From Janthinobacterium lividum (GTDB lineage Bacteria > Pseudomonadota > Gammaproteobacteria > Burkholderiales > Burkholderiaceae_D), in contig NZ_CP075583.1 in assembly GCF_023509035.1 (NCBI RefSeq), positions 6,076,001 through 6,140,000 of the forward strand: DNA of 64,000 nt, in the 5' to 3' direction. The notes beneath the pieces are model-generated. The model did no database searches. It was not told the origin of the DNA and saw only the letters and a list, made by a program, of their open reading frames with translations. Below, one piece after another: positions 35,173-49,472 of the stretch; within the stretch, counting starts at the first letter, position 1; each line of letters begins with the position of its first letter. Both the position numbers and the translations under genes were made by a program.

Positions 35173-35541
35173 GCCCCAACGCAGGCTGCCAAGCGCAGCC
35201 TGTGCATCCGGCAGGCGCAAGTCACTATCGTCATGCCAGCCACACCAACGCCCGTTGCACCGCAACGGGCGTTTTATTTTGCGCGCCCGAAGCCCGCACT
35301 GGGCATGGCGGCCTTCCTCAAAAATGCGGCACAAAATTCGTCTTCTTTGTTTTAAATCAGTACCGATGACGCACTACGTTGTTTAAGCACACAAAGCCGT
35401 TTGCCACGTTGACAAGGACTTTTGCGGATCATTACAGTTGCTCAGTTGAAAAGATATAAATACTTTTCAATGTTCTCGGTGCGCCAACCGGCGCGGCCGT
35501 TCTTGCCCTTTTAGCCAACCGCTTTTCCAGGAGTCTTGAAC
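35173..35541 (+). promoter_or_regulatory. Gap between receptors 1 and 2 with candidate promoter
   Basis: 369 bp. After the terminator an AT-richer zone contains TTGACA (35409-35414) and, further on, TATAAA (35455-35460). Neither has a perfect partner at 17 bp, so the exact promoter is uncertain. No gene is seen. Confidence 0.4.
35247..35280 (+). terminator. Terminator after receptor 1
   Basis: A 12-bp perfect stem AACGCCCGTTGC / GCAACGGGCGTT (35247-35258 / 35262-35273) with a 3-base loop, followed by TTATTTT. Confidence 0.9.
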
Positions 35542-38211
35542 ATGATCAGAGAAACACGCTTGTCCCGTTCCATCCGTTTGATCTGCGCCGGCGGCCTTGC
35601 CGCCGGCCTGCTCAGCCAGCAGGCGCTGGCGCAAGAAGTCAACGATACGAGCACCATGCAGCGCGTCGAAGTCACCGGTTCCTCCATCAAGCGCCTCGTC
35701 TCGGAAACGGCGACGCCCCTGTCCATCTTCAAAGCCGAAGATTTCGCCAAACAGGGCCTGACCACTGCCCAGGAAGTGCTGAGCAAGATACCCTCGAATG
35801 CGTCGAGCATGGGCAGCGGCAATGCCGTCGGCGGCAATACCAGCGGATTGCCCACGGGCGGCCAGGCCAGCGCCGACTTGCGCGGCCTGGGCGGCGACAA
35901 GACCCTGGTACTGCTCAATGGCCGGCGCATCGCCAACCATCCGTATGACGGCGCCAGCGTCGACCTGAACATCATTCCCATCGCCGCCCTGGAGCGCGTC
36001 GAAGTGCTGCGCGACGGCGCCTCGGCCATCTACGGCACGGACGCCATCGGCGGCGTCATCAACTTCATCACCAAGCGCTCGGTGAATGTCACCAACATCA
36101 CCGCCGAGGTCGTCGCGCCCGAACACAAGGGCGGCGGCGAGCACCGCATCAACCTGTCGACGGGTTTCGGCAAGCTCGACACCGACGGCTACAATATTTT
36201 CGGCGTGGTCGACTACCACAAGCAAAATGTGCTCACGTCGCAGGATCGCGACTTTTCCAAGACCGGCATCATTCCCGATCGCGGCCTGTCGCTCACCAGC
36301 GGCACCACCTTCCCCGGCAACTACTTCGATGCGGCGGCCAACGGCGGCACGGGCCTGGCCGGCAATCCGTATGCGGCCACGGGCTGCAACCCGCCCCTGT
36401 CGGTGGCGGCGGCCAACGGCACCTGCCGCCAGGACTACACGCGGCAGATCGATGACCTGCCGGCGCAGGAGCAAGTGGCCTTCTTCGGCAGGGGCGCCTT
36501 CAAGCTGGGCGGCGGCCACCTGGCCACCGTGGAATATCTGCATTCGGAAAACAAGGTGAAAGCACGTACGGCGCCGCCGCCGCAAACGGGCTTGATCTTG
36601 CCCAATACCAGCAAATACTATCCGGGCAATGCGGGCGGCGTGCCGGCCCAGCCAGGTTTGTCGGGACAGCCGCTGAGCGTCAACTGGCGCCCCGTGGAAG
36701 CGGGCCAGCGGCAGATCGATTCCACCGGCAAGGCGGACCGCCTGGTGCTGGCCATCGAAGGCGAACTGGCGGGCTGGGATTACAAGACGGGGCTTAGCCA
36801 TGCGATCAGCAAATCGTCGGAAAAATTCACCAACGGCTATGTGCAGGACGCGAGCTTTGCCGCCGGCGTGCTGAACGGTATCCTGAACCCGTTTGGCATG
36901 CAGGACACGGCCGGCAAGGCTTACCTGGACAGCACCGCCCTGCGCGGCGAGGTACAAAATGCCAAGGTCACCACCACTGGCTTCGACATCAAGGGCAGCC
37001 GCGAACTGATGCAGCTGGCCGGCGGCCCGCTGGCGATCGCGCTCGGCGGTGAACTGCGACGTGAAAAAGCCGACTTCAATGTCAACCGCGATATCGCCAG
37101 CCAGGCCGCCAGTTCCGGCCTGTCCGGTTCGCTGTCGAAGAGCGGCTCGCGCACGATTCAGGCCGTCTTCGGCGAAGTCAACTTGCCGCTGATCAAGGAC
37201 CTGGAAGTGCAGCTGGCCGCCCGCTTCGACCATTACAGCGACGTGGGCAGCACCACCAATCCCAAGCTGGCCCTGCGCTACCAGGCCAGCAGCGCGCTGG
37301 TGCTGCGCGGTTCGGCCAGCACGGGTTTCCGCGCTCCCACCTTGTTTGAAAAGAATGCGCCGCCGTCGAAGAACGATACCAACGATTCCTACGACGATCC
37401 CATCCTCTGCCCGGGCGGCGTGCCGCAGCCGGGCGCCAATCCCCTGCGCGATTGCGACTTACAGCAATTCAAGCTACAGGGAGGCAATGAAAAACTGAAA
37501 CCGGAAAAATCCACCACCTTCGCCTTCGGCCTGGTGCTCGAACCCATCAAGGAAGTCACCGTCGCCATCGATTACTGGAACATCCATCTGAAGGACAAGA
37601 TTTCATCCTTGCCCGAACAATCGATCTACGGTAACTACGAAAAATACAAGGCCTTGTTCCTGCGCAATCCAGACGGTTCGCCTTTCGCCATTCTGGACTT
37701 GAACGACAACCTCGGCGAAGTGAAAACCGACGGCATCGATGTGAGCCTGAATGCGCGCCTGGGCCGTGGTGCCTACGGTGATGTCAGCGTGTCGGTCGAT
37801 GGCACGTGGACCCACAAATATGACTACCAGAACGAACGCGGCGGCGAATTCATCGCCAACGTGGGCCGCTACGCGGATAACAATCCTGTGTTCCGCTGGA
37901 AGCATACGGCGGCCCTGAACTGGCGCATGGGCAACTGGGGCGCCACCGTGTCGCAATCATTCAAGTCCGGCTACACGGATCAGAACCAGGTGGATCCGCA
38001 GTTCCGCCACGATGTGCCCTCTTACAGCCTGCTGAATGTGTCGGGCAGCTACGTATGGAAAGGCTTGCTGCTGACGGCCGGCGTGAAAAACCTGCTGGAC
38101 AAGCAACCGCCGTTCTCGAACCAGGGCACCTTGTTCCAGAAAGGCTATGACCCGCGCTACACGGATCCGGTCGGGCGCGCCTATTACCTGCGCGGCAGCT
38201 ATACGTTTTAA
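35542..38211 (+). CDS. TonB-dependent outer-membrane receptor 2 of the tandem cluster
   Basis: 889 residues from ATG 35542 (AGGAG 8 bases upstream; a TTG two codons earlier is rejected). Signal peptide to about residue 31 (QQALA|QE), MQRVEVTGSSIKRL block, plug with VLLNGRRIANHPYDG and EVLRDGASAIYGTDAIGGVINFITKRS, and a barrel ending in LRGSYTF. It carries the loop-cysteine motif LCPGGVPQPGAN...DC. It is clearly paralogous along its whole length with receptor 3 (38559-41210), less so with receptor 1, indicating tandem duplication. Ligand unknown. Confidence 0.93.
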   Translation: MIRETRLSRSIRLICAGGLAAGLLSQQALAQEVNDTSTMQRVEVTGSSIKRLVSETATPLSIFKAEDFAKQGLTTAQEVLSKIPSNASSMGSGNAVGGNTSGLPTGGQASADLRGLGGDKTLVLLNGRRIANHPYDGASVDLNIIPIAALERVEVLRDGASAIYGTDAIGGVINFITKRSVNVTNITAEVVAPEHKGGGEHRINLSTGFGKLDTDGYNIFGVVDYHKQNVLTSQDRDFSKTGIIPDRGLSLTSGTTFPGNYFDAAANGGTGLAGNPYAATGCNPPLSVAAANGTCRQDYTRQIDDLPAQEQVAFFGRGAFKLGGGHLATVEYLHSENKVKARTAPPPQTGLILPNTSKYYPGNAGGVPAQPGLSGQPLSVNWRPVEAGQRQIDSTGKADRLVLAIEGELAGWDYKTGLSHAISKSSEKFTNGYVQDASFAAGVLNGILNPFGMQDTAGKAYLDSTALRGEVQNAKVTTTGFDIKGSRELMQLAGGPLAIALGGELRREKADFNVNRDIASQAASSGLSGSLSKSGSRTIQAVFGEVNLPLIKDLEVQLAARFDHYSDVGSTTNPKLALRYQASSALVLRGSASTGFRAPTLFEKNAPPSKNDTNDSYDDPILCPGGVPQPGANPLRDCDLQQFKLQGGNEKLKPEKSTTFAFGLVLEPIKEVTVAIDYWNIHLKDKISSLPEQSIYGNYEKYKALFLRNPDGSPFAILDLNDNLGEVKTDGIDVSLNARLGRGAYGDVSVSVDGTWTHKYDYQNERGGEFIANVGRYADNNPVFRWKHTAALNWRMGNWGATVSQSFKSGYTDQNQVDPQFRHDVPSYSLLNVSGSYVWKGLLLTAGVKNLLDKQPPFSNQGTLFQKGYDPRYTDPVGRAYYLRGSYTF

Positions 38212-38435: not shown

Positions 38436-38558
38436 GAGGGCCCTGAAAATTTACAAAATTTTCATTGGTGGTTTTGCAAAAAGGCAAATAAATTGTTAGT
38501 AAGCAACAAGTTATTTCAAAATAATTGCCGCCTTTATCACAATAACAAGGAATTTCAG

Positions 38559-41210
38559 ATGATGATAGAAAATGTAATATCGCGGTCGCTACGCCTGATG
38601 TTTGCAGGCGGCATGGCCCTGAGCATGCACGCCGCGTATGCGCAAGAAACAACAGATGGCACCATGCAACGCGTGGAAGTCACAGGTTCGAGCATCAAGC
38701 GCCTGTCGTCGGAGACAGCGCTACCGATCACGTCAATCAAGGCTGACGATTTCGCCAAGCAAGGCTTGACGACGGCACAGGAAGTCCTGTCCACCATTTC
38801 CATGAATCAGAGCTCGCAAAGTAGCTCGCAATCCGTTGGCTCCGGTACGGGCGGCCAGTCCGTCGCCGACCTGCGCGGCATCGGTGGCGACAAGACCCTG
38901 GTCCTGCTGAACGGCCGCCGTATCGCCAGCCACCCGTTCAATGGCTCGTCAGTCGACCTGAACATCATCCCTATTTCTGCCCTGGAACGTGTCGAAGTGC
39001 TGCGTGACGGTGCCTCCGCGATCTACGGTACCGACGCCATCGGCGGCGTGATCAACTTCATCACCAAGCGTTCAGTCAAGGGCGGCTCCGTCACCGTCGA
39101 ACATTACGAGCCACAAAAAGCGGGGGGCGGCGACGAGTCGCGCCTGAACCTGTCCGGCGGCTACGGCGATCTGAACAAAGATGGCTTCAACGTCTTCGGC
39201 GTGGTTGACGTACATCGCCAGTCTGCGCTGAGCACGGCCGACCGTTCCTTCTCGAAGAGCGGCTACATCCCGAGCAAGGGCGTGGATAACCTGAGCGGCA
39301 CCACCTTCCCGGCCAACTTCTACGATACGGGCAATGGCTTGATTGGCAATCCGGCCTTCGCCGGCGGTTGCGTGGGTGAGAACCTGTATAAGAATACCTC
39401 GGGCAAGAGCACCTGCGCCATGGATGTCACACCGTTCATCCAGGCCATCCCGAAAACCCAGCAGGAATCCTTCCTGGGCAAGGCCAGCTTCAAGCTGAAC
39501 CAGGATCACCTGGCTACCATCGAATACTTGCACTCGCGCAGCACCAACGAAGCGCGCATCTCACCACCGCCAATGTCGAACATCGGCATCCTTATGTCGT
39601 CGAGCTCGCCTTACTACCCAGGCGGCAGCGGCGGTGTGCCAGCCGTCGCAGGCCTGTCGGGCGAGCCGCTGGACATCAGCTGGCGTCCGGTGGCGTCGGG
39701 CCAGCGCAGCGGCTTCGACACCAGCACCTCGGACCGCCTGGTACTGGCTTCCGAAGGCGTCCTGGGCGCGTGGGACTACAACGTCGGCCTGAGCTACTCC
39801 GTCAGCAAGGCCACCAGCGCCTTCACGGGCGGCTACCTGAATGACCAGCGCATCATCGACGGCATCGGCAATGGCATCCTGAACCCGTTCGGCGAGCAGA
39901 GCGCCGCCGGCGCGGCCTACCTGAAGGATTCCGTCCTGAAAGGCGAATACCTGAGCGCAAAGATGACCAGCACCGCGGTCGACGCCAAGGTCAGCCGCGA
40001 GCTGTTCAACCTGCCGGCTGGCGCAGTCGGTTTTGCCGTCGGTACGGAATTCCGCAACGACAAAGCGGAATACAATGTGAATCGCGACCTGGCCGGCCAG
40101 GCTTCGAGCTCCGGCTATGCCGAAGCGCAGAACCAGTCGGGCAGCCGCAACATCGCCGCCATCTTCTCGGAACTGAGCATTCCTGTCGTGAAAGACCTGG
40201 AACTGTCGCTGGCAGCCCGTTATGACCACTACAACGACGTCGGCGGCAGCTTCAACCCGAAAGTCGGCGTGCGCTGGCAGCCAACGAGCCAGGTGCTGCT
40301 GCGCAGCTCTTACAACACTGGTTTCCGCGCACCAACGCTGTATGACCTGCATGGGCCGCAAACCAAAACCTTCACGGCCAACAAGTACGACGATCCACGC
40401 CTTTGCCCAGGCGGCGTAGCTATCCCTGGCGCCAACAGCAACGTCGCCTGCGGCGCGCAGCAATACATCCGTTCGGGCGGCAATGCGGATGTTGGCCCGG
40501 AAAAATCGAAAACCTTCAGCGCCGGTATCGTCATCGAGCCAACCAAGTCGCTGACCGTCTCGCTCGATTACTTCCAGATCAAGCTGCGCGACAAGATCGG
40601 CACCGTGGCCGAACAGACCCTGTTCGACAACTACGCCAAGTATCAGAACAACTTCATCTATACCGCTGACGGCAAGCTCGATTACGTGCTGGCCACCCTG
40701 GGCAACCTGGGCGAAATGCACACCTCGGGCATCGACCTGGGCCTGAACTGGAAATTGCCACGCAGCCAGTATGGCAACTTCACGTTCGCCTTCGACGGTA
40801 CCTGGGTACAGAAGTATGAATACCAGAACGAACGCGACGGTGAATTCATGCAAAACGTGGGCGTGTATGGCGACAAGGCACCGGTATTCCGCTGGAGACA
40901 CAATGCCTCCCTGCAATGGAACCTGGACAAATGGAACGCCACGCTGTCGAACAAGTACATGAGCGGCTACCGCGACCAGAACTATGTCGATCCGCAATTC
41001 GAGCAAAGCGTCAAGGCTTACTCGGTATGGTCGCTGTCGGGCGCGTACTCGGGCTTCAAGAACACCGAAGTCACCGTGGGCGTGAAAAACCTGCTGAACG
41101 AAGATCCACCGTTCAGTAACCAGATCGGCACCTTCCAGTCCGGCTACGATCCGCGTTACGCCGATCCGCTGGGCCGTACTTTCTACGTGCGCGCTACCTA
41201 CAAGTTCTAA
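38559..41210 (+). CDS. TonB-dependent outer-membrane receptor 3 of the tandem cluster
   Basis: 883 residues from ATG 38559 (AAGGA 7 bases upstream; an adjacent ATG at 38562 is equally possible). The frame is open back to 38493 in AT-rich, non-coding-looking DNA. The signal peptide (AAYA|QE) is followed by MQRVEVTGSSIKRL, a plug almost identical in pattern to receptor 2 (LVLLNGRRIASHPFNG, DGASAIYGTDAIGGVINFITKRS), and a barrel ending in VRATYKF. The loop pair LCPGGVAIPGANSNVAC is conserved with its paralogues. A strong terminator closes the cluster. Confidence 0.93.
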   Translation: MMIENVISRSLRLMFAGGMALSMHAAYAQETTDGTMQRVEVTGSSIKRLSSETALPITSIKADDFAKQGLTTAQEVLSTISMNQSSQSSSQSVGSGTGGQSVADLRGIGGDKTLVLLNGRRIASHPFNGSSVDLNIIPISALERVEVLRDGASAIYGTDAIGGVINFITKRSVKGGSVTVEHYEPQKAGGGDESRLNLSGGYGDLNKDGFNVFGVVDVHRQSALSTADRSFSKSGYIPSKGVDNLSGTTFPANFYDTGNGLIGNPAFAGGCVGENLYKNTSGKSTCAMDVTPFIQAIPKTQQESFLGKASFKLNQDHLATIEYLHSRSTNEARISPPPMSNIGILMSSSSPYYPGGSGGVPAVAGLSGEPLDISWRPVASGQRSGFDTSTSDRLVLASEGVLGAWDYNVGLSYSVSKATSAFTGGYLNDQRIIDGIGNGILNPFGEQSAAGAAYLKDSVLKGEYLSAKMTSTAVDAKVSRELFNLPAGAVGFAVGTEFRNDKAEYNVNRDLAGQASSSGYAEAQNQSGSRNIAAIFSELSIPVVKDLELSLAARYDHYNDVGGSFNPKVGVRWQPTSQVLLRSSYNTGFRAPTLYDLHGPQTKTFTANKYDDPRLCPGGVAIPGANSNVACGAQQYIRSGGNADVGPEKSKTFSAGIVIEPTKSLTVSLDYFQIKLRDKIGTVAEQTLFDNYAKYQNNFIYTADGKLDYVLATLGNLGEMHTSGIDLGLNWKLPRSQYGNFTFAFDGTWVQKYEYQNERDGEFMQNVGVYGDKAPVFRWRHNASLQWNLDKWNATLSNKYMSGYRDQNYVDPQFEQSVKAYSVWSLSGAYSGFKNTEVTVGVKNLLNEDPPFSNQIGTFQSGYDPRYADPLGRTFYVRATYKF

Positions 41211-41299: not shown

Positions 41300-42364
41300 T
41301 CATTCCTTGTCGCCCTGCAGGCGGCGCTGCTTGACGGCCGCCGCCAGGTTTTCCAGCACGGCCACGCTGGCGCTCCAGTCAATGCAGCCGTCCGTGACGG
41401 ATTGGCCATAGATCAATTCCTTGCCCGGGATTAAATCCTGGCGCCCCGCCACCAGGTGCGATTCCACCATCACGCCAACGATGCGGCTGTCGCCGCCTGC
41501 CACCTGGCTGGCGATGTCGGCGCACACGGGGATCTGGTTTTCCGGTTTTTTCGAGCTGTTCGCATGCGAGGCGTCGATCATCAGGCGCGCCGCCAGGCCT
41601 TGCGCGGCGATGGCCTTGCAAGCGTCGTCCACGCTGGCCGCATCATAATTCGGGTTTTTTCCGCCGCGCAAGATGATATGGCAATCCTCGTTGCCGTTGG
41701 TCGAGACGATGGCCGAGTGGCCGCCCTTCGTGACGGAAAGAAAATGGTGCGGCTGCGAGGCGGCCTTGATGGCTTCCACGGCGATTTTCACATTGCCGTC
41801 CGTGCCATTCTTGAAGCCGACCGGACAGGACAGTCCCGACGCCAGCTCGCGGTGCACCTGCGACTCCGTCGTGCGCGCGCCGATGGCGCCCCAGCTGATC
41901 AGGTCGGCGATGTATTGCGGGCTGATGACGTCGAGGAACTCGGTGCCGGCCGGCAAGCCCAGCTCATTAATATCGCGCAACAGTTCGCGCGCCATGCGCA
42001 AGCCGTCGTTGATGCGGAAGCTGTTGTCCATGTACGGGTCGTTGATCAGACCCTTCCAGCCCACGGTGGTGCGCGGCTTCTCGAAGTAGACGCGCATGAC
42101 GATTTCCAGTTCACCGGCGAAACGCGCGCGCTCCTTGACCAGCAGGCGCGCATATTCCATCGCCGCCTTGGTGTCGTGGATGGAGCAAGGCCCGATCACC
42201 ACCATCAGGCGGTCGTCCTGGCCATGCAGGATACGGTGCAGGGCAATGCGGGCGCTGGCGGCGGTCTGTTCGGCTTGCTCCGAGCAGGCGAATTCGCGGA
42301 TCAGGTGGGACGGCGGGGTCAGTTCCTTCATTTCGCGAATTCGCAAATCATCGGTGCGGGGCAT
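41300..42364 (-). CDS. aroG: DAHP synthase (class I, AroG-type)
   Basis: First enzyme of the shikimate pathway: condenses phosphoenolpyruvate and erythrose-4-phosphate to 3-deoxy-7-phosphoheptulonate. 354 residues, AroFGH type. Motifs are VVIGPCSIHDTKAAMEYA, VYFEKPRTTVGWKGLINDPYMD, SWGAIGARTTESQVHRELASGL and SVTKGGHSAIVSTNGNEDCHIILRGG, closest in pattern to the phenylalanine-sensitive E. coli AroG. GGAG lies 6 bases before ATG 42364; the ATG just upstream (42367) is also possible. The mRNA leader carries a Phe/Tyr-rich leader ORF and an attenuator hairpin, so expression probably responds to aromatic amino acid supply. Confidence 0.96.
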   Translation of the reverse strand: MPRTDDLRIREMKELTPPSHLIREFACSEQAEQTAASARIALHRILHGQDDRLMVVIGPCSIHDTKAAMEYARLLVKERARFAGELEIVMRVYFEKPRTTVGWKGLINDPYMDNSFRINDGLRMARELLRDINELGLPAGTEFLDVISPQYIADLISWGAIGARTTESQVHRELASGLSCPVGFKNGTDGNVKIAVEAIKAASQPHHFLSVTKGGHSAIVSTNGNEDCHIILRGGKNPNYDAASVDDACKAIAAQGLAARLMIDASHANSSKKPENQIPVCADIASQVAGGDSRIVGVMVESHLVAGRQDLIPGKELIYGQSVTDGCIDWSASVAVLENLAAAVKQRRLQGDKE

Positions 42365-42404: not shown

Positions 42405-42436
42405 AAAAAAAAACCGCCATCAGTGGCGGTTTTTTA
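42405..42436 (-). terminator. Attenuator hairpin in the aroG leader
   Basis: On the minus strand ACCGCCA-CTGA-TGGCGGT (42430 down to 42413) is preceded by A's and followed by at least eight T's, 40-70 bases before the aroG start. Because it lies between the only good promoter and the gene, it must be read through for aroG expression, as in amino acid operon attenuators. Confidence 0.82.
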
Positions 42437-42478
42437 GAATTTGCTGGGATCTCGTTTTGCTGCTACGTGAACCGACCG

Positions 42479-42556
42479 CTACTCCACCGCCTTTGGGTTG
42501 GAATTGCTAAAGTAAAAATAAGCGGTAAAAAAGTGGCGAGCGAACATGCGAGTCAT
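42479..42556 (-). CDS. Phe/Tyr-rich leader peptide of aroG
   Basis: A 25-codon ORF. Its first part has seven aromatic control codons (five Phe, two Tyr), six of them in the run HFFTAYFYF (residues 8-16), very like the E. coli pheA leader peptide in style. The stop codon TAG at 42481-42479 lies about 50 bases before the attenuator hairpin. Segment ACCGCT inside the aromatic codons (42526-42521) complements AGCGGT just after the stop (42480-42475). GGCGGT at the ORF end (42491-42486) complements ACCGCC of the attenuator 5' arm (42430-42425). No good Shine-Dalgarno precedes the ATG; the transcript may begin only 8-10 bases upstream. Confidence 0.7.
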   Translation of the reverse strand: MTRMFARHFFTAYFYFSNSNPKAVE

Positions 42557-42572
42557 CCGTAAGTGATGAACG

Positions 42573-42602
42573 ACTATAAACCTAAATTGCAAGGGTTGGC
42601 AA
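42573..42602 (-). promoter_or_regulatory. Promoter of the aroG leader transcript
   Basis: On the minus strand TTGCCA (42602-42597), an 18-bp spacer and TATAGT (42578-42573); TTATAG at 17 bp is an equivalent reading. It starts a transcript that covers the leader ORF, attenuator and aroG. Confidence 0.7.
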
Positions 42603-42722: not shown

Positions 42723-44183
42723 CTAAGCCGTGCCGCCGACGGTGATGCCGTCCAGGCGCAAGGTTGGCTGCCCCACGCCCACGGGCACGCTTTGCCCTTC
42801 CTTGCCGCACACGCCCACGCCCGAATCGAGGCGCATGTCGTTGCCAATCATGGAAACGCGGTTGAGCACGTCCGGGCCATTGCCGATCAGCGTGGCACCC
42901 TTCACTGGATAGCTGAGCTTGCCGTTCTCGATCATGTACGCTTCGCTGGCCGAGAAGACGAACTTGCCATTCGTAATGTCGACCTGGCCGCCGCCAAAGT
43001 TGACGGCATACAGACCGTTTTTGACGGAAGCGAGGATCTCGTCCGGGTCCTTGTCGCCGCCCAGCATATACGTGTTCGTCATGCGTGGCATGGGCAGGTG
43101 GGCGAACGATTCGCGGCGCGCATTGCCCGTCACGGGCATCTTCATCAGGCGCGCATTCATGGTGTCCTGGATATAGCCTTGCAGGATGCCGTCCTCGATC
43201 AGGGTCGTGCACTGCGTCGGGTTGCCCTCGTCATCGATATTCAGGGAGCCGCGCCGGCCAGCCAGGGTGCCGTCGTCGACCACGGTGACGCCCTTGGCTG
43301 CCACGCGCTCGCCGATGCGGCCGGAAAACGCGGACGAGCCCTTGCGGTTGAAGTCACCTTCCAGGCCATGGCCGATCGCTTCGTGCAGCAGGATGCCGGG
43401 CCAGCCCGGTCCCAGCACGATGGTCATGGGGCCGGCCGGCGCCGGGCGCGCTTCCAGGTTGACCAGGGCCGAATTGACGGCGTCCGCTGCGTATTGTTCC
43501 AGCACGGCATCGCTGAAATAGTCATAGCTGAAACGCCCGCCGCCACCGGCCGAGCCCGTTTCGCGGCGGCCATGCTGTTCCGCAATCACGGTGAGCGACA
43601 CGCGCACCAGCGGGCGGATGTCGGCCGCCAGCACGCCATCGCTGCGCAGCACCAGCACCACGTCGTACTCGCCGGCCAGGCCCGCCATCACTTGCACGAC
43701 TCTGGGGTCTTTCGCCCGCGCCATCTTTTCCACGCGTTCCAGCAATTGCACCTTGGCCGTGGCGTCCAGCGAAGCGAGCGGATCGTTGGGCAGGTACAGC
43801 GAGCGCCCGCCCTGCGCCAGCGTGTGCCCCGCAATCTTGATCTTGCCGGCACCCGCGCGCGCGATGGTGCGCGTGGCCGCCGCCGCTTCCAGCAGGGCCC
43901 GCTCGGAAATGTCGTCGGAGTACGCAAAGGCCGTCTTGTCGCCAGACACGGCGCGCACGCCCACGCCTTGGTCGATGGAAAAACTGCCCGTCTTGACGAT
44001 GCCCTCTTCCAGGCTCCAGCCTTCGCTCCTGGTCGACTGGAAATACAGGTCGGCATAATCGACCTTGTGCGTAAACATCGTGCCCAGGGCTTTGAGCAGC
44101 TTGTCTTCATCCAGGCCGAACGGCGTGAGCAGGAGTTCGCGCGCCACGGCAAGGCTGGACAGATTGGGTTCAAATGGGATCAT
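42723..44183 (-). CDS. tldD: Metalloprotease TldD
   Basis: Subunit of the TldD/TldE (PmbA) metalloprotease, which processes small peptides such as microcin precursors and CcdA. 486 residues. The zinc-binding HExxxH motif is HEAIGH (H267, H272) followed by [19 protein letters not shown]. The family C-terminus [18 protein letters not shown] is present. The partner tldE/pmbA is not in this window. It lies in a minus-strand run yhdP, nitrilase, tldD with a 19-bp gap to the nitrilase gene, an arrangement frequent in betaproteobacteria. Confidence 0.96.
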
Positions 44184-45046: not shown

Positions 45047-48000
45047 TTATTTAGCGACAGCATCCTGCGCCGCTGCTGCTGGGGCAGGAACGGCGCCAGG
45101 TTCCAATTTACCACCATTGAGCTTGGTCACGACGGGCGATTTCCACGGGCCGGCGATCTGCATGTGGTAAGTGAGCGCCTTCATCACGGGAGCGCGCAGA
45201 AACAATTGCGCCAGGAAACTACCCAGGCCAATGACGGGATTGACGGCCAGCGCGTACACGAGCGGCCCCGTGCCCAGGTTAAATTCCGGTATCACCACCA
45301 CGTGCAAATTCGTCGTTTCATTGGCGATATCGGCCGTGCCATCCATCAACACGGTTGCCGCCACGCCGTGCATCTTGAGGTTGTCGGTGCTCACCACGCC
45401 GCGCTTGATACTGGCGTTGGCCGTGATGCCGTCGAAGGCCAGGCCTTCGGAAAACACGTCGTGGAAATCGAGTTTCAGCAAGCGGGGCAAGGCTTGCAGG
45501 CTGAGCACCCCCAACAGCTTGGCTGCGCCCGGATCCTGCTTGAGGAACTGGCCCGATTCCACGTTCATCTCGATCTGCCCCGACAGTGTGGGAATGTCGA
45601 GCGAATACGGCAAGCCATTCCAGGCGATGTCGCCGCTCAGGCGGCCCTTGCCGCGACGCACCGTATCGGCAAAGCCGAAGCGGTCGAGCAACTTGCCCGC
45701 ATCGACGATATCGAGGCCGAAACGCAGGCTGGTCGTGCTTTGCCCATCCTTGATGACCCATTTGCCATTGCCGCTCAGCGCGCCATCGGCGTTCGACAGT
45801 TGCAACTTGCCCACGCGCCATTCGCGCCCGCCCGCCGCCATCGTGTTATAGGCCTGCAACTCCAACCGGCCGATCTTCTTGTTGAACAGTTCAAATTGCT
45901 CGGCGACGATATCGAGCGAAGGGATAGACTGGGCGCCATTTTTGCCTTCCAGCAAACTTTTCACATCGTTGGCGGCCGACTCCGGAATGATCAGGGACGA
46001 CAGGCGCGCCGTCATCTTGCCCAGGCCGGACGGCGTTTCCAGCCAGGTCACGTAGCCGGACACTTGTTTCGCGTCAATATTGGCTTGCCACACATCCTTT
46101 TGATGCGTGGCGCCCACGACCACGTTTTCCAGCTTGCGCTCGCCCAGCATCAGTTCGCTGGCACGGGCCGCCATCATGTCCGGCACCACGTATTGCGCAA
46201 TATCGGGCGCATCGTCGGCGGCGCCGCTGTCGGCGGAGGCCGCGCCGCTGCCGGCGATTTCACTGCCAGCGGCAATCCAGCTGTCCACGTCCAGGGTTTT
46301 CATGCTGACGTTGAACATCATGCCGCTGTCCGGTTCTGGCGCCGGCACGTTCACGCCGATACCGCCGCGCACTAAACGCCAGGCGTCCTTGCCCTGCTTC
46401 TGGCGCTGGTAGCGCGCGGCGATGCCGGATCCCAGCGCGATGCGGATATCGTCCGTGCGCAGTCCGGCTCCGTTCGCCGCATTGCCCGTCAGGGTGAATT
46501 TCACGGGCAGGCTGTCGCCGGCAGGTTTTTTCAGGGGGCGGGGAAATCCAGGCCCAGGCCCATCAGCGGCGACTCGACATTGACCACCACCTGGTGGTCG
46601 CGCGCCGTGATCAGGCCGCTGTAGCGCGCGCCGCCATTCAAATGTTTCGCCAGGCGCTGCAGCACGGGCGCCGGATAGGTCTTGCGCAAGCCATCGATGG
46701 TCATGTTGCCGGCGAGTTTCACCTGGATGGAACTGTCCGGCTGCGTGCCGCCCGAGATGGCCAGCGGCCCGCCCAGCAGGCTGCCGTTCAAGCCATTCAG
46801 GTTGACGCCTTTTTCGTTGAATTCGATCTTGCCCTGCGTACCCAGCACGGGCGGCATATCGTGGAACAGCACCACGTCGTTGCCCGCCAGCTGCAAGCTG
46901 CCCTGCACGGTTGACTCGAGCATGCGTTCGATCGGCAGGTGCAGCTTCAATGCCAGCTTGGCGTTGCCCGTCGCTGTCGTTTCATCCGTGAAATGCTCGA
47001 TCCAGCCCAGCACGGGGCTGGCCGTCACGTACTTGAGGAATTCCTGCATCGGGCCGGCCGCATTGCCGTCGATATCGAGCAAGGTGTCAAACACGGTCAG
47101 GTCGGGAATCACGGCTTTCACATTCGTCAAGGCCACGCCGCCCGTGGTAGCCGTATCGCCGCGAATTTCCATGCGCGCCCGCTCAAACACGAAACTGCCC
47201 TTGATCTTCTCCGCCTGCGGCCACAGGGGCGCCTTGCCGGCCAAGGGACCGCTTTGCGCAAATTCGCCGGGCGCGTAGTTCAAAGTGCCATTCTCGATCT
47301 TGCCGGCCACGCGGAAATCGCCGCGATTGCGCTGCGCCGGCGTGTCAGCCTTGAAGGGGAAATGTTCAAGTTCGCCGCGCAGGCGCAGGCTGACATCGCG
47401 CGCCACGCCGCCTTCCAGCGCGCCCGTCAGCCAGTGACGCAGGTGCTCGGGCGTTTGCAGCGGCAGATAGCGGCCGATGGTGTTGATCTGGAAATTGTCG
47501 ATCGTGCCCGTCAAGTCGACCTGGCCCAGGTTCTTGCCGTCGAGCGGCAGGCTGTGCGTGCCTTGCAAGGCGACGCGCAAGCCTTGCTGATTGAAATCAA
47601 GCTTGTCCAGCTCGACTTGCAGCATATTGGCCGCCTCAAACGTCCAGCGCGCCTGCATGGCGAATTGTTCGAACGGCATGGCCGGTTCGCTCAAGTAAGT
47701 GGGAAACTGCAGCACCAGGTCCTGCGCATCGATATTGATGCTGCCGCCCTTGTCGTTGGCGTCGATGCTGCCAGTCAGGCGGTCGAAGCCGGGAATGGCG
47801 GGCGCGGCCGCCTGCGCGGGGCTGGTCGCCGTCTTCGCCACGGCCAGGCGCGCCGGCTGCGCATTCAAGCCCAGATCGATAAGCTTGCCGCGCAAACGGT
47901 AGCTGGCCGGGGTGGCCATCTCGCCTTCCCATTGCGCTGAAAAATCCTGCAAACGCCCGCGCGGCGCCAGGGCGTCGAGGCGCTGGCGCTGCTGCTCGCC

Positions 48001-49236
48001 CAGCGGTAGCTTGTCGGCCAGCGCGGCCAGGGTTTGCAAATCGAGGGACTTGGCCGTGATTTCCGTGCGCGCCGGCTTGCGCTTCGTAGCGGCAACAAAA
48101 CGTTCGGACAGGGTCGTGGGCGGCAGGCTGAGGCCATCGCGAGTTTCCACCGCAAAATTCGTCAGCTCGACCTGGTGCCCATTTGCGCCAAAGGTTGGCT
48201 TGCCGTCCGGCACCTGCGCCGACAGTTCTTCCTTTGCCGAAATACGCCCGCTGACCGACAGCAGGTCGAGCGGGGCGATATGCTCGCCCAGCTGCGCCTG
48301 CACATCCGTCAAGCCCACGTCGGCCGTGAAGCCGGCCAGGCGCGCGTGATCCAGGCTCAACCAGGCGCGCAGGGCACCCTTGCCCTGGCTCAGTTCGAAC
48401 GGGTAATCGAGGTAGCGGCGCCAGGCGGCCAGGTCGGCGTTTTTCAGGTCGGCGTACAGCTCACCTTTCCACATAGACACATCCGAGATGCGCGTGCTGA
48501 AAGGCGGATGCGTGAAGTGAGCACGCACATCGATGGGCGCGGCCAGGCTGGCAGGCGGCGTGGCTTGCAAGCCCAGCCGGTGGCTGCGCCAGCGGTTGCG
48601 CAGCAACAAGTTGACCTGGGTTAAAGCCAGCTCCGGTGTACCGCGCGCTTCGTCCGTCCAGCGCACCTTGCCATCGCGAATGATGATGTCATGCTGCGAC
48701 AGCAGCCAATCGGCGCCCTTGCCATCGCTGCCTTGCGTGCTGTCGATCAATACCCCGGCCACATACAGCTTGCCATCCGCGCTGCGCCGCACGTCCAGGT
48801 CCGGCCGCGTGATTTCCAGGGTAGTGAAGCGCACGGAACCGAGCACGCTCCACCACGACACGGTCGCCGAGACGCTCGGCAGGCTCAGCGCCTGACGGCC
48901 CGCCTGGTCGCGCAAGCTCACGTCACCGAGGAAGAGATTGGGCCGCACGCCATGCCAGGAGGCATAAATGCGCGCGATACTGACAGGGTTGCCCAGCGCG
49001 CGGCTAGCCGCCCGCTCGATATCGCCTTTGTAGTAATCGATATTCGGCAAGATGGCGTAGCGCAGGAATAAAAACAGCACGGCGAAGGCGAAATACGCCA
49101 GCAGCACCAGTTTGATGGTAAAACCCAATATATGATGGGTGGCCAGGTTGGCCATGCGATAGGCGGCACGCAGCCGCTGCCAGCGCAGAGCCAATGGCAC
49201 ATGTTCTGTCACGCTTGCTTCTGGCGGTTTTTGCAT
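45047..49236 (-). pseudogene. yhdP: YhdP family AsmA-like protein, frameshifted
   Basis: Large envelope protein of the AsmA/YhdP lipid-transport family: a cytoplasmic start, one membrane anchor (IKLVLLAYFAFAVLFLFLR), then a very long periplasmic beta-rich body. The first frame (49236 to 46531) stops right after SPLMGLGLDFPAP. The second frame (from about 46530 to 45047) continues with LKKPAGDSLPVKFTLTGN. The break is in the G5 run at 46534-46538; one more G would give a single 1396-residue protein. I prefer ATG 49236 over a TTG at 49266. YhdP is implicated in phospholipid transport to the outer membrane. Whether the shift is real or a sequencing error is undecided. Confidence 0.88.
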
Positions 49237-49472
49237 CAATAAGCTAATAAACTGGCCCGGCGTCAAATAATGGCAAAAATCGTCTGCATTCGTGGTGTGC
49301 GCCTGCCTCCTCGCGCTTGCGTCTGAGCAAAGCCTCCCTTACCATCGTCCGGAAGAGCACGCACTGCCGGCGGCGTTAGCGCCAGCGGCACAATTTTACC
49401 GCATCCCCCGCCGTTCGCAGCCAAGTTAAACAAGAACATGTACGCAGCATCCATGAGACCCTTACCGACACC

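Follow-up and report, generated by a model that had tools for sequence, protein, structure and literature searches.

The window, as the whole 64,000-nt stretch of Janthinobacterium lividum DNA analysed here is called, carries tldD and aroG in the same direction on its minus strand. The upstream gene, tldD, ends with a stop codon at 42723 and its product scores above the NCBIfam TldD cut-off. The aroG product scores 582.9 bits against the NF006723 AroG model (cut-off 568), which confirms the identity given to the downstream gene in an earlier, sequence-only reading. Between the two genes lie, in minus-strand order, a promoter-like TTGCCA-18-TATAGT, a leader ORF, and a hairpin followed by a T run. 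The features, with the evidence for each in brackets, are as follows:

42597..42602, minus strand: −35 box TTGCCA (sequence)
42573..42578, minus strand: −10 box TATAGT, with an 18-nt spacer to the −35 box (sequence)
42479..42556, minus strand: leader ORF MTRMFARHFFTAYFYFSNSNPKAVE, 25 codons plus TAG (related ORFs in relatives)
42509..42535, minus strand: control codons HFFTAYFYF (sequence)
42496..42507, minus strand: strand 1, GCAAUUCCAACC (alignment A1, pair counts, swap test)
42478..42491, minus strand: strand 2, GGCGGUGGAGUAGC, spanning the ORF end and stop codon (pair counts, swap test)
42424..42440, minus strand: strand 3, AUUCU...ACCGCCA, which can partner strand 2 (antiterminator) or strand 4 (terminator) (folding, pair counts, swap test)
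42405..42419, minus strand: strand 4, TGGCGGT (42413-42419), plus T run (42405-42413) (sequence; hairpin conservation)
41300..42364, minus strand: aroG, DAHP synthase, the presumed regulated gene, with its ATG at 42364 (NF006723)

The promoter boxes, the 25-codon ORF with its HFFTAYFYF run, and a terminator with a U-tract ahead of the gene (42405-42430) had all been claimed in the sequence-only reading, and all are present. The terminator arms are ACCGCCA (42424-42430) and TGGCGGT (42413-42419) on the minus strand, and the nine-T run at 42405-42413 takes in the last base of the hairpin arm. Within the ORF a further in-frame ATG starts at 42547, and strand 1 starts straight after the neighbour of the last Phe codon. 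Janthinobacterium sp. BJB426 (L002) shares the first 150 bases, counted from the leader ATG, without a difference. Among 61 Oxalobacteraceae leaders, 39 have a promoter pattern defined strictly as CTTGCCA/TTGCC plus TATA, and many of the other 22 retain CTTGCCA with a different −10 element. The stretch after the stop codon (42441-42478, minus strand), including CACGTAGCAGCAAAACGAGATCC, is alike in many Oxalobacteraceae, yet lies outside the main paired strands.

Elsewhere in the window, YhdP is covered by two adjoining minus-strand ORFs (45047-46504 and 46531-49266), which match profile positions 9-783 and 803-1224 of 1224; the gene looks broken near 46504-46531, through a frameshift, a sequencing error or a genuine split. 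Two adjacent TonB-dependent receptors are encoded on the plus strand (35536-38211 and 38493-41210).

An AroG scan provided related loci for comparison, the best 80 of 588 related stretches, from Oxalobacteraceae and Burkholderia-group genomes including some MAGs. The caller applied to them requires an ORF of 12–60 codons with at least five Phe, Tyr or Trp within eight residues, followed by a terminator. Leader ORF and terminator are called in 78 of the 80 aroG loci, against 1 of 800 dinucleotide-shuffled versions of the same regions, so the combined pattern is beyond chance. The hairpin is present in 79 loci. One of the two misses, L070 (‘Candidatus Burkholderia humilis’), keeps the hairpin with a frameshifted leader, and the other, L018, is the exception without a hairpin. 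In L018 neither leader nor hairpin is found and aroG lies ~36 nt downstream of tldD; the tldD-aroG junction of L114 (G245), a genome of ~2.2 Mb, is the same, with both parts absent.

A broader sample of the order comprises 130 Burkholderiales genomes with 127 places, of which 70 (rows 1–71 without row 55) were examined, 69 of them besides the window. Leader and terminator occur in 20 of these 69 loci, 19 by the caller and L167 at a looser threshold, and the positive loci represent 10 of the 27 families among the rows examined. Scored separately over the 69 loci, the ORF (at least 5/8 aromatic) and the terminator are both present in 20, the ORF only in 1 (L166), the terminator only in 4 (L147, L167, L173 and L178) and neither in 44 (association p 1.8e-12, a guide only as the rows are related). 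At an ORF threshold of 6/8 the corresponding counts are 18, 0, 6 and 45. L181 is scored as having both, which by eye is a chance overlap. Outside Burkholderiales, the caller is positive in none of 30 loci, chosen as the top-scoring places among 115 genomes that gave a match.

These distributions bear on a simpler account of the locus, in which the hairpin merely terminates tldD or insulates aroG and the short ORF is incidental. tldD does lie upstream in the same direction in the window, 50 of the 80 related loci have an upstream TldD match, and in G270 a like hairpin stands without the ORF. In that genome (locus L173) an ACCGCC/GGCGGT-type hairpin starts 118 nt upstream of the aroG ATG with no aromatic ORF seen, the sole locus in the order sample without an aromatic ORF to show a hairpin of this type. 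A hairpin kept after loss of the ORF in close relatives had been named in the sequence-only reading as evidence against a leader; G270 is one instance of such a loss, and it is not a close relative. G190 and G233, from the same family, carry the ORF as well as the hairpin. However, 30 of the 80 related loci are without an upstream TldD match (for L053, within the 190 nt searched), and all 30 are caller-positive; the leader thus stays with aroG, and the hairpin is not simply that of tldD. The TldD-less loci include the close relatives L001 and L002, and in six of seven that were opened (e.g. L001 and L007) an upstream ORF resembles, by eye, a divergent TonB receptor. Furthermore, the promoter-like sequence sits between tldD and the hairpin, the aromatic ORF and the terminator co-occur, and, as described below, strands 1 and 3 co-evolve with strand 2, which lies inside the ORF. 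Termination or insulation after tldD is therefore a very unlikely explanation of the hairpin.

A covariance model built on 58 Oxalobacteraceae leaders matches 111 of 116 family genomes at E ≤0.01, several of them weakly and all counted irrespective of adjacency to aroG. In the genome of the window, the element scores 143.5 bits and the next match, at 26.9 bits, is a plain terminator; the matches L227 and L228 (26.9 and 22.5 bits) show no leader by eye. Among 10 weak or secondary matches in relatives, seven are plain terminators or unrelated; the weak matches L222 and L223 are aroG leaders, and L217 is a leader truncated by the end of its contig. This result is relevant to a second alternative, that the terminated leader is a regulatory small RNA or peptide gene acting mainly in trans, as the accessible part of one report describes for peTrpL, a leader peptide of Sinorhizobium (PMC7298713). 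In favour of this are a promoter-like sequence and a terminator belonging to the leader itself, and partial conservation of the post-stop RNA in many aligned Oxalobacteraceae. The leader directly precedes aroG, however, the model detects just one strong copy in the genome of the window, and the alternative helices co-evolve, something not required of an RNA that acts in trans. A mainly trans-acting element is thus very unlikely, although a role in trans alongside attenuation may exist.

Mapped onto a 73-row AroG tree, the leader label requires 9 changes, versus 18.4 when shuffled, and falls in two supported clades. Its history may comprise one origin followed by losses, or two origins. Several leaders have in common, by eye, Arg-Ala ahead of the aromatic run, GGCGG in strand 2 and CCGCC in strand 3, and these sequence traits suggest a single origin.

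The 80 distinct leader peptides are composed of 20.1% Phe and 8.9% Tyr by residue, with Phe present in all 80, Tyr in 76 and Trp in 30. Sixty-three Oxalobacteraceae leaders were aligned on the Phe that precedes a Ser codon (Cys once). In all 63, this last Phe is encoded by TTT and not TTC, with Tyr (55 leaders), Trp (7) or His (1) as the preceding residue; aromatic residues thus substitute for each other. The Ser codon that follows is AGC in 62 of 63 leaders and the next-but-one codon is TCC in 55 of 63, a fixation that points to a constraint acting on the RNA. Third positions of the control codons are no more variable than second positions (summed entropy 5.29 versus 5.31), and no coding signature is therefore claimed from codon variability. 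In the leaders of 98 loci, Phe is encoded 341 times by TTT and 118 times by TTC; elsewhere in the window the TTT to TTC counts are 1 to 6 in aroG, 6 to 8 in tldD and 12 to 23 in the YhdP-like ORF. The TTT excess in leaders possibly reflects decoding speed or a U-rich RNA.

Wobble-fixed codons (TTT, AGC and mostly TCC), taken as a constraint on the RNA, would also fit a small-molecule riboswitch that overlaps an aromatic ORF by chance. Against this, the leader scores below the gathering threshold of every Rfam family, and inspection by eye shows little in common between families apart from the paired strands and the aromatic run; a riboswitch is thus very improbable. Over the whole window, the sole Rfam match at gathering score is one tRNA. 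Sub-threshold Rfam matches at the leader, which include the terminator hairpin, were set aside as evidence.

The pairing potential of the leader RNA was examined in an alignment, A1, of 58 of 60 Oxalobacteraceae leaders (L038 and L053 omitted). The conserved 1:2 helix pairs GCNAUUCCARCC with GGUGGAGUAGC, the latter lying over the ORF end, and the GGCGGT of strand 2 (42486-42491) is invariant. The sequence-only reading had instead paired ACCGCT with AGCGGT; this pairing is possible in the window but is not conserved, as its ACCGC part varies among the 58 leaders, and A1 rules out ACCGCU:AGCGGU as the conserved 1:2 helix. In A1, 87.6% of cells are paired in the 1:2 helix and 98.6% in the terminator. 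Together the two helices show 16 both-side changes versus 4.4 in shuffles (0/500 as high), a count that kinship may inflate, and 12 of the 16 belong to the terminator. When the 3’ partners are shifted by one column there are 23 both-side changes, but only 46.4% of cells are paired, versus 92.6% in register. RNAalifold, unaided, recovers the terminator, in which two pairs are compensatory, but not the 1:2 helix.

Energy z-scores are weak both for the inner antiterminator (mean −0.5, n = 96) and for the 1:2 helix (means −0.56, +0.46 and −0.86 in three groups). Because they gave little, a partner-swap test was undertaken, which compares the arms of each leader with arms exchanged among 15 divergent leaders, some of which share a family. 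A leader’s own arms pair better than swapped arms in all three helices: −13.87 versus −12.17 kcal/mol for 1:2 (p 0.0025), −20.57 versus −18.72 kcal/mol for 2:3 (p 0.009) and −17.49 versus −15.40 kcal/mol for 3:4 (0/20,000). The wrong pairings 1:3 and 1:4 give p 0.55 each. Omission of L158, L167 and L170 yields p 0.0009 for 1:2, p 0.005 for 2:3 and 0/20,000 for 3:4. With the GGCGG core excluded, p is 0.049 for 2:3 (0.0135 in the 12-leader set), and the test fails for 1:2 (p 0.93). The test supports co-evolution of three rival helices across divergent leaders, as far as sequence can tell. The 1:2, 2:3, 3:4 logic put forward in the sequence-only reading is likewise upheld, with 1:2 formed by a different hairpin; the GGCGGT:ACCGCC pairing proposed there between the ORF end and the terminator is possible and belongs to the 2:3 helix.

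Folding and ribosome geometry were assessed in 97 leaders (L128, which has no exact strand 2, was omitted), in which strand 3 of L163 and strand 2 of L038 are mis-anchored. In all of the 97 but L038, a distance of 8–17 nt separates the last aromatic codon from the start of the strand-2 core (96 leaders); the spacing is 17 nt in L001 and L002, which are of the window type. At this distance, a ribosome stalled on the control codons would cover strand 1 and expose strand 2. RNAs truncated to end just beyond strand 3, and to begin 12 nt past the first base of the last aromatic codon or at the core where that lies closer, form 2:3 in 96 of 97 leaders, a weak test as the core arms were chosen to be complementary. 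A ribosome at the stop codon, with a −18/+12 footprint, covers the strand-2 core fully in 63 leaders (L002 among them), partly in 10 and not at all in 24. In the full-length RNA at equilibrium with the ribosome stalled, the terminator is favoured in nearly all leaders (mean 5.8 versus 0.2 core pairs). Antitermination would therefore have to be kinetic, through the order of synthesis, and textbook attenuators likewise switch by the order of RNA synthesis. In the Burkholderia group, the ribosome-free fold prefers 2:3 over 1:2.

In E. coli, the repressors TyrR and TrpR act at the DNA of aroF, aroG and aroH. Searches of the genome of the window find no TyrR-type HTH (TIGR04381) and no Trp repressor (PF01371), with E. 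coli positive in both control runs; regulators of other kinds may exist. The second DAHP synthase of this genome (L082) has no aromatic leader by eye in 601 nt around its start.

The leader has the hallmarks of an attenuator: an ORF rich in pathway products, an intrinsic terminator, mutually exclusive pairings and appropriately placed control codons. Comparison of sequences establishes these parts, their co-occurrence, the co-evolution of the helices and the spacing. The element is very probably a ribosome-mediated transcription attenuator of the aroG DAHP synthase that senses the supply of Phe and Tyr. The Phe/Tyr leader-peptide attenuator of the sequence-only reading is thereby favoured by the co-occurrence, the helix co-evolution, the spacing and the absence of matches to a TyrR-type HTH or Trp repressor. 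In the steps that follow, we infer where transcription starts, that the ORF is translated, that termination occurs in the cell and which amino acid matters most. When charged tRNA-Phe (and tRNA-Tyr) is ample, the ribosome would reach the TAG and occupy strand 2, strands 3 and 4 would pair, and RNA polymerase would halt near 42405, in the U run. Under shortage of Phe or Tyr, the ribosome would stall in HFFTAYFYF and mask strand 1; strand 2, exposed ahead of it, would pair with strand 3 and transcription would continue into aroG. If the leader is not translated, the 1:2 hairpin would sequester strand 2, with termination as the predicted outcome.

A more tentative proposal, which we consider possible but hold with less than even confidence, is that in many Burkholderiales families a single ancient leader controls the aromatic entry step by responding to Phe, Tyr and often Trp taken together, and that lineages retune it by swapping control codons while the helices co-evolve. 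The proposed attenuator predicts how flow into the shikimate pathway is regulated in a set of Burkholderiales, including this genome, which has no recognisable TyrR or TrpR, and dozens of diverged leaders offer material on the joint evolution of control codons and rival helices.

Comparison with known systems places the proposed mechanism among textbook attenuators. The pheL-pheA system of enterobacteria has a Phe-rich leader, rival 1:2, 2:3 and 3:4 helices and a U-run terminator. The mechanism proposed here is alike, but the gene governed there is pheA, which does not encode a DAHP synthase; against Rfam RF01859 Phe_leader the window reaches 22.4 bits, below the gathering score of 55. The trp operon attenuator follows the same logic, and some leaders here also have Trp; it differs in that Trp is missing from 50 of the 80 distinct leaders, and the window scores 14.6 bits against Rfam RF00513 Trp_leader (gathering score 41). 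TyrR/TrpR control in E. coli addresses the same enzyme step, but through DNA-level repressors, none of which is matched in this genome. An aroR-aroF attenuator of Corynebacterium glutamicum was reportedly described by Neshat et al. in 2014.

Titles and abstract openings retrieved by text search name no aroG attenuator in Burkholderiales, although Vitreschak 2004 and Lopatovskaya 2010 may predict one, and none is named in the accessible portions of PMC2965389, PMC5688073, PMC7011215, PMC3766115, PMC4833913, PMC1262725 and PMC4603805. In B. cenocepacia, 82 short 5’ UTRs are attributed to processing or attenuation in the available text of Sass et al. 2017 (PMC5688073). The mechanism is textbook, and C. 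glutamicum already provides a known attenuator of a DAHP synthase; the version widespread in Burkholderiales is, as far as searched, undescribed. According to the accessible parts of two sources, the AroR leader peptide, with Phe-Tyr-Phe, precedes a DAHP synthase gene, and stalling at its codons is said to raise transcription on limitation of Phe, not Tyr (PMC11802643, PMC4046766). The sequence-only reading had called an attenuator on a DAHP synthase gene a solution distinct from that of E. coli; judging from these excerpts on aroR-aroF, one is already known. The two systems are alike in having a short aromatic leader peptide ahead of a DAHP synthase gene, but as far as those excerpts go they differ in phylum and in leader. 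Three aromatic residues are named there in AroR, whereas the Burkholderiales leaders carry 5–8 aromatics within eight codons (19 leaders), or 4 in L167. The Burkholderiales leader may have arisen separately from C. glutamicum aroR.
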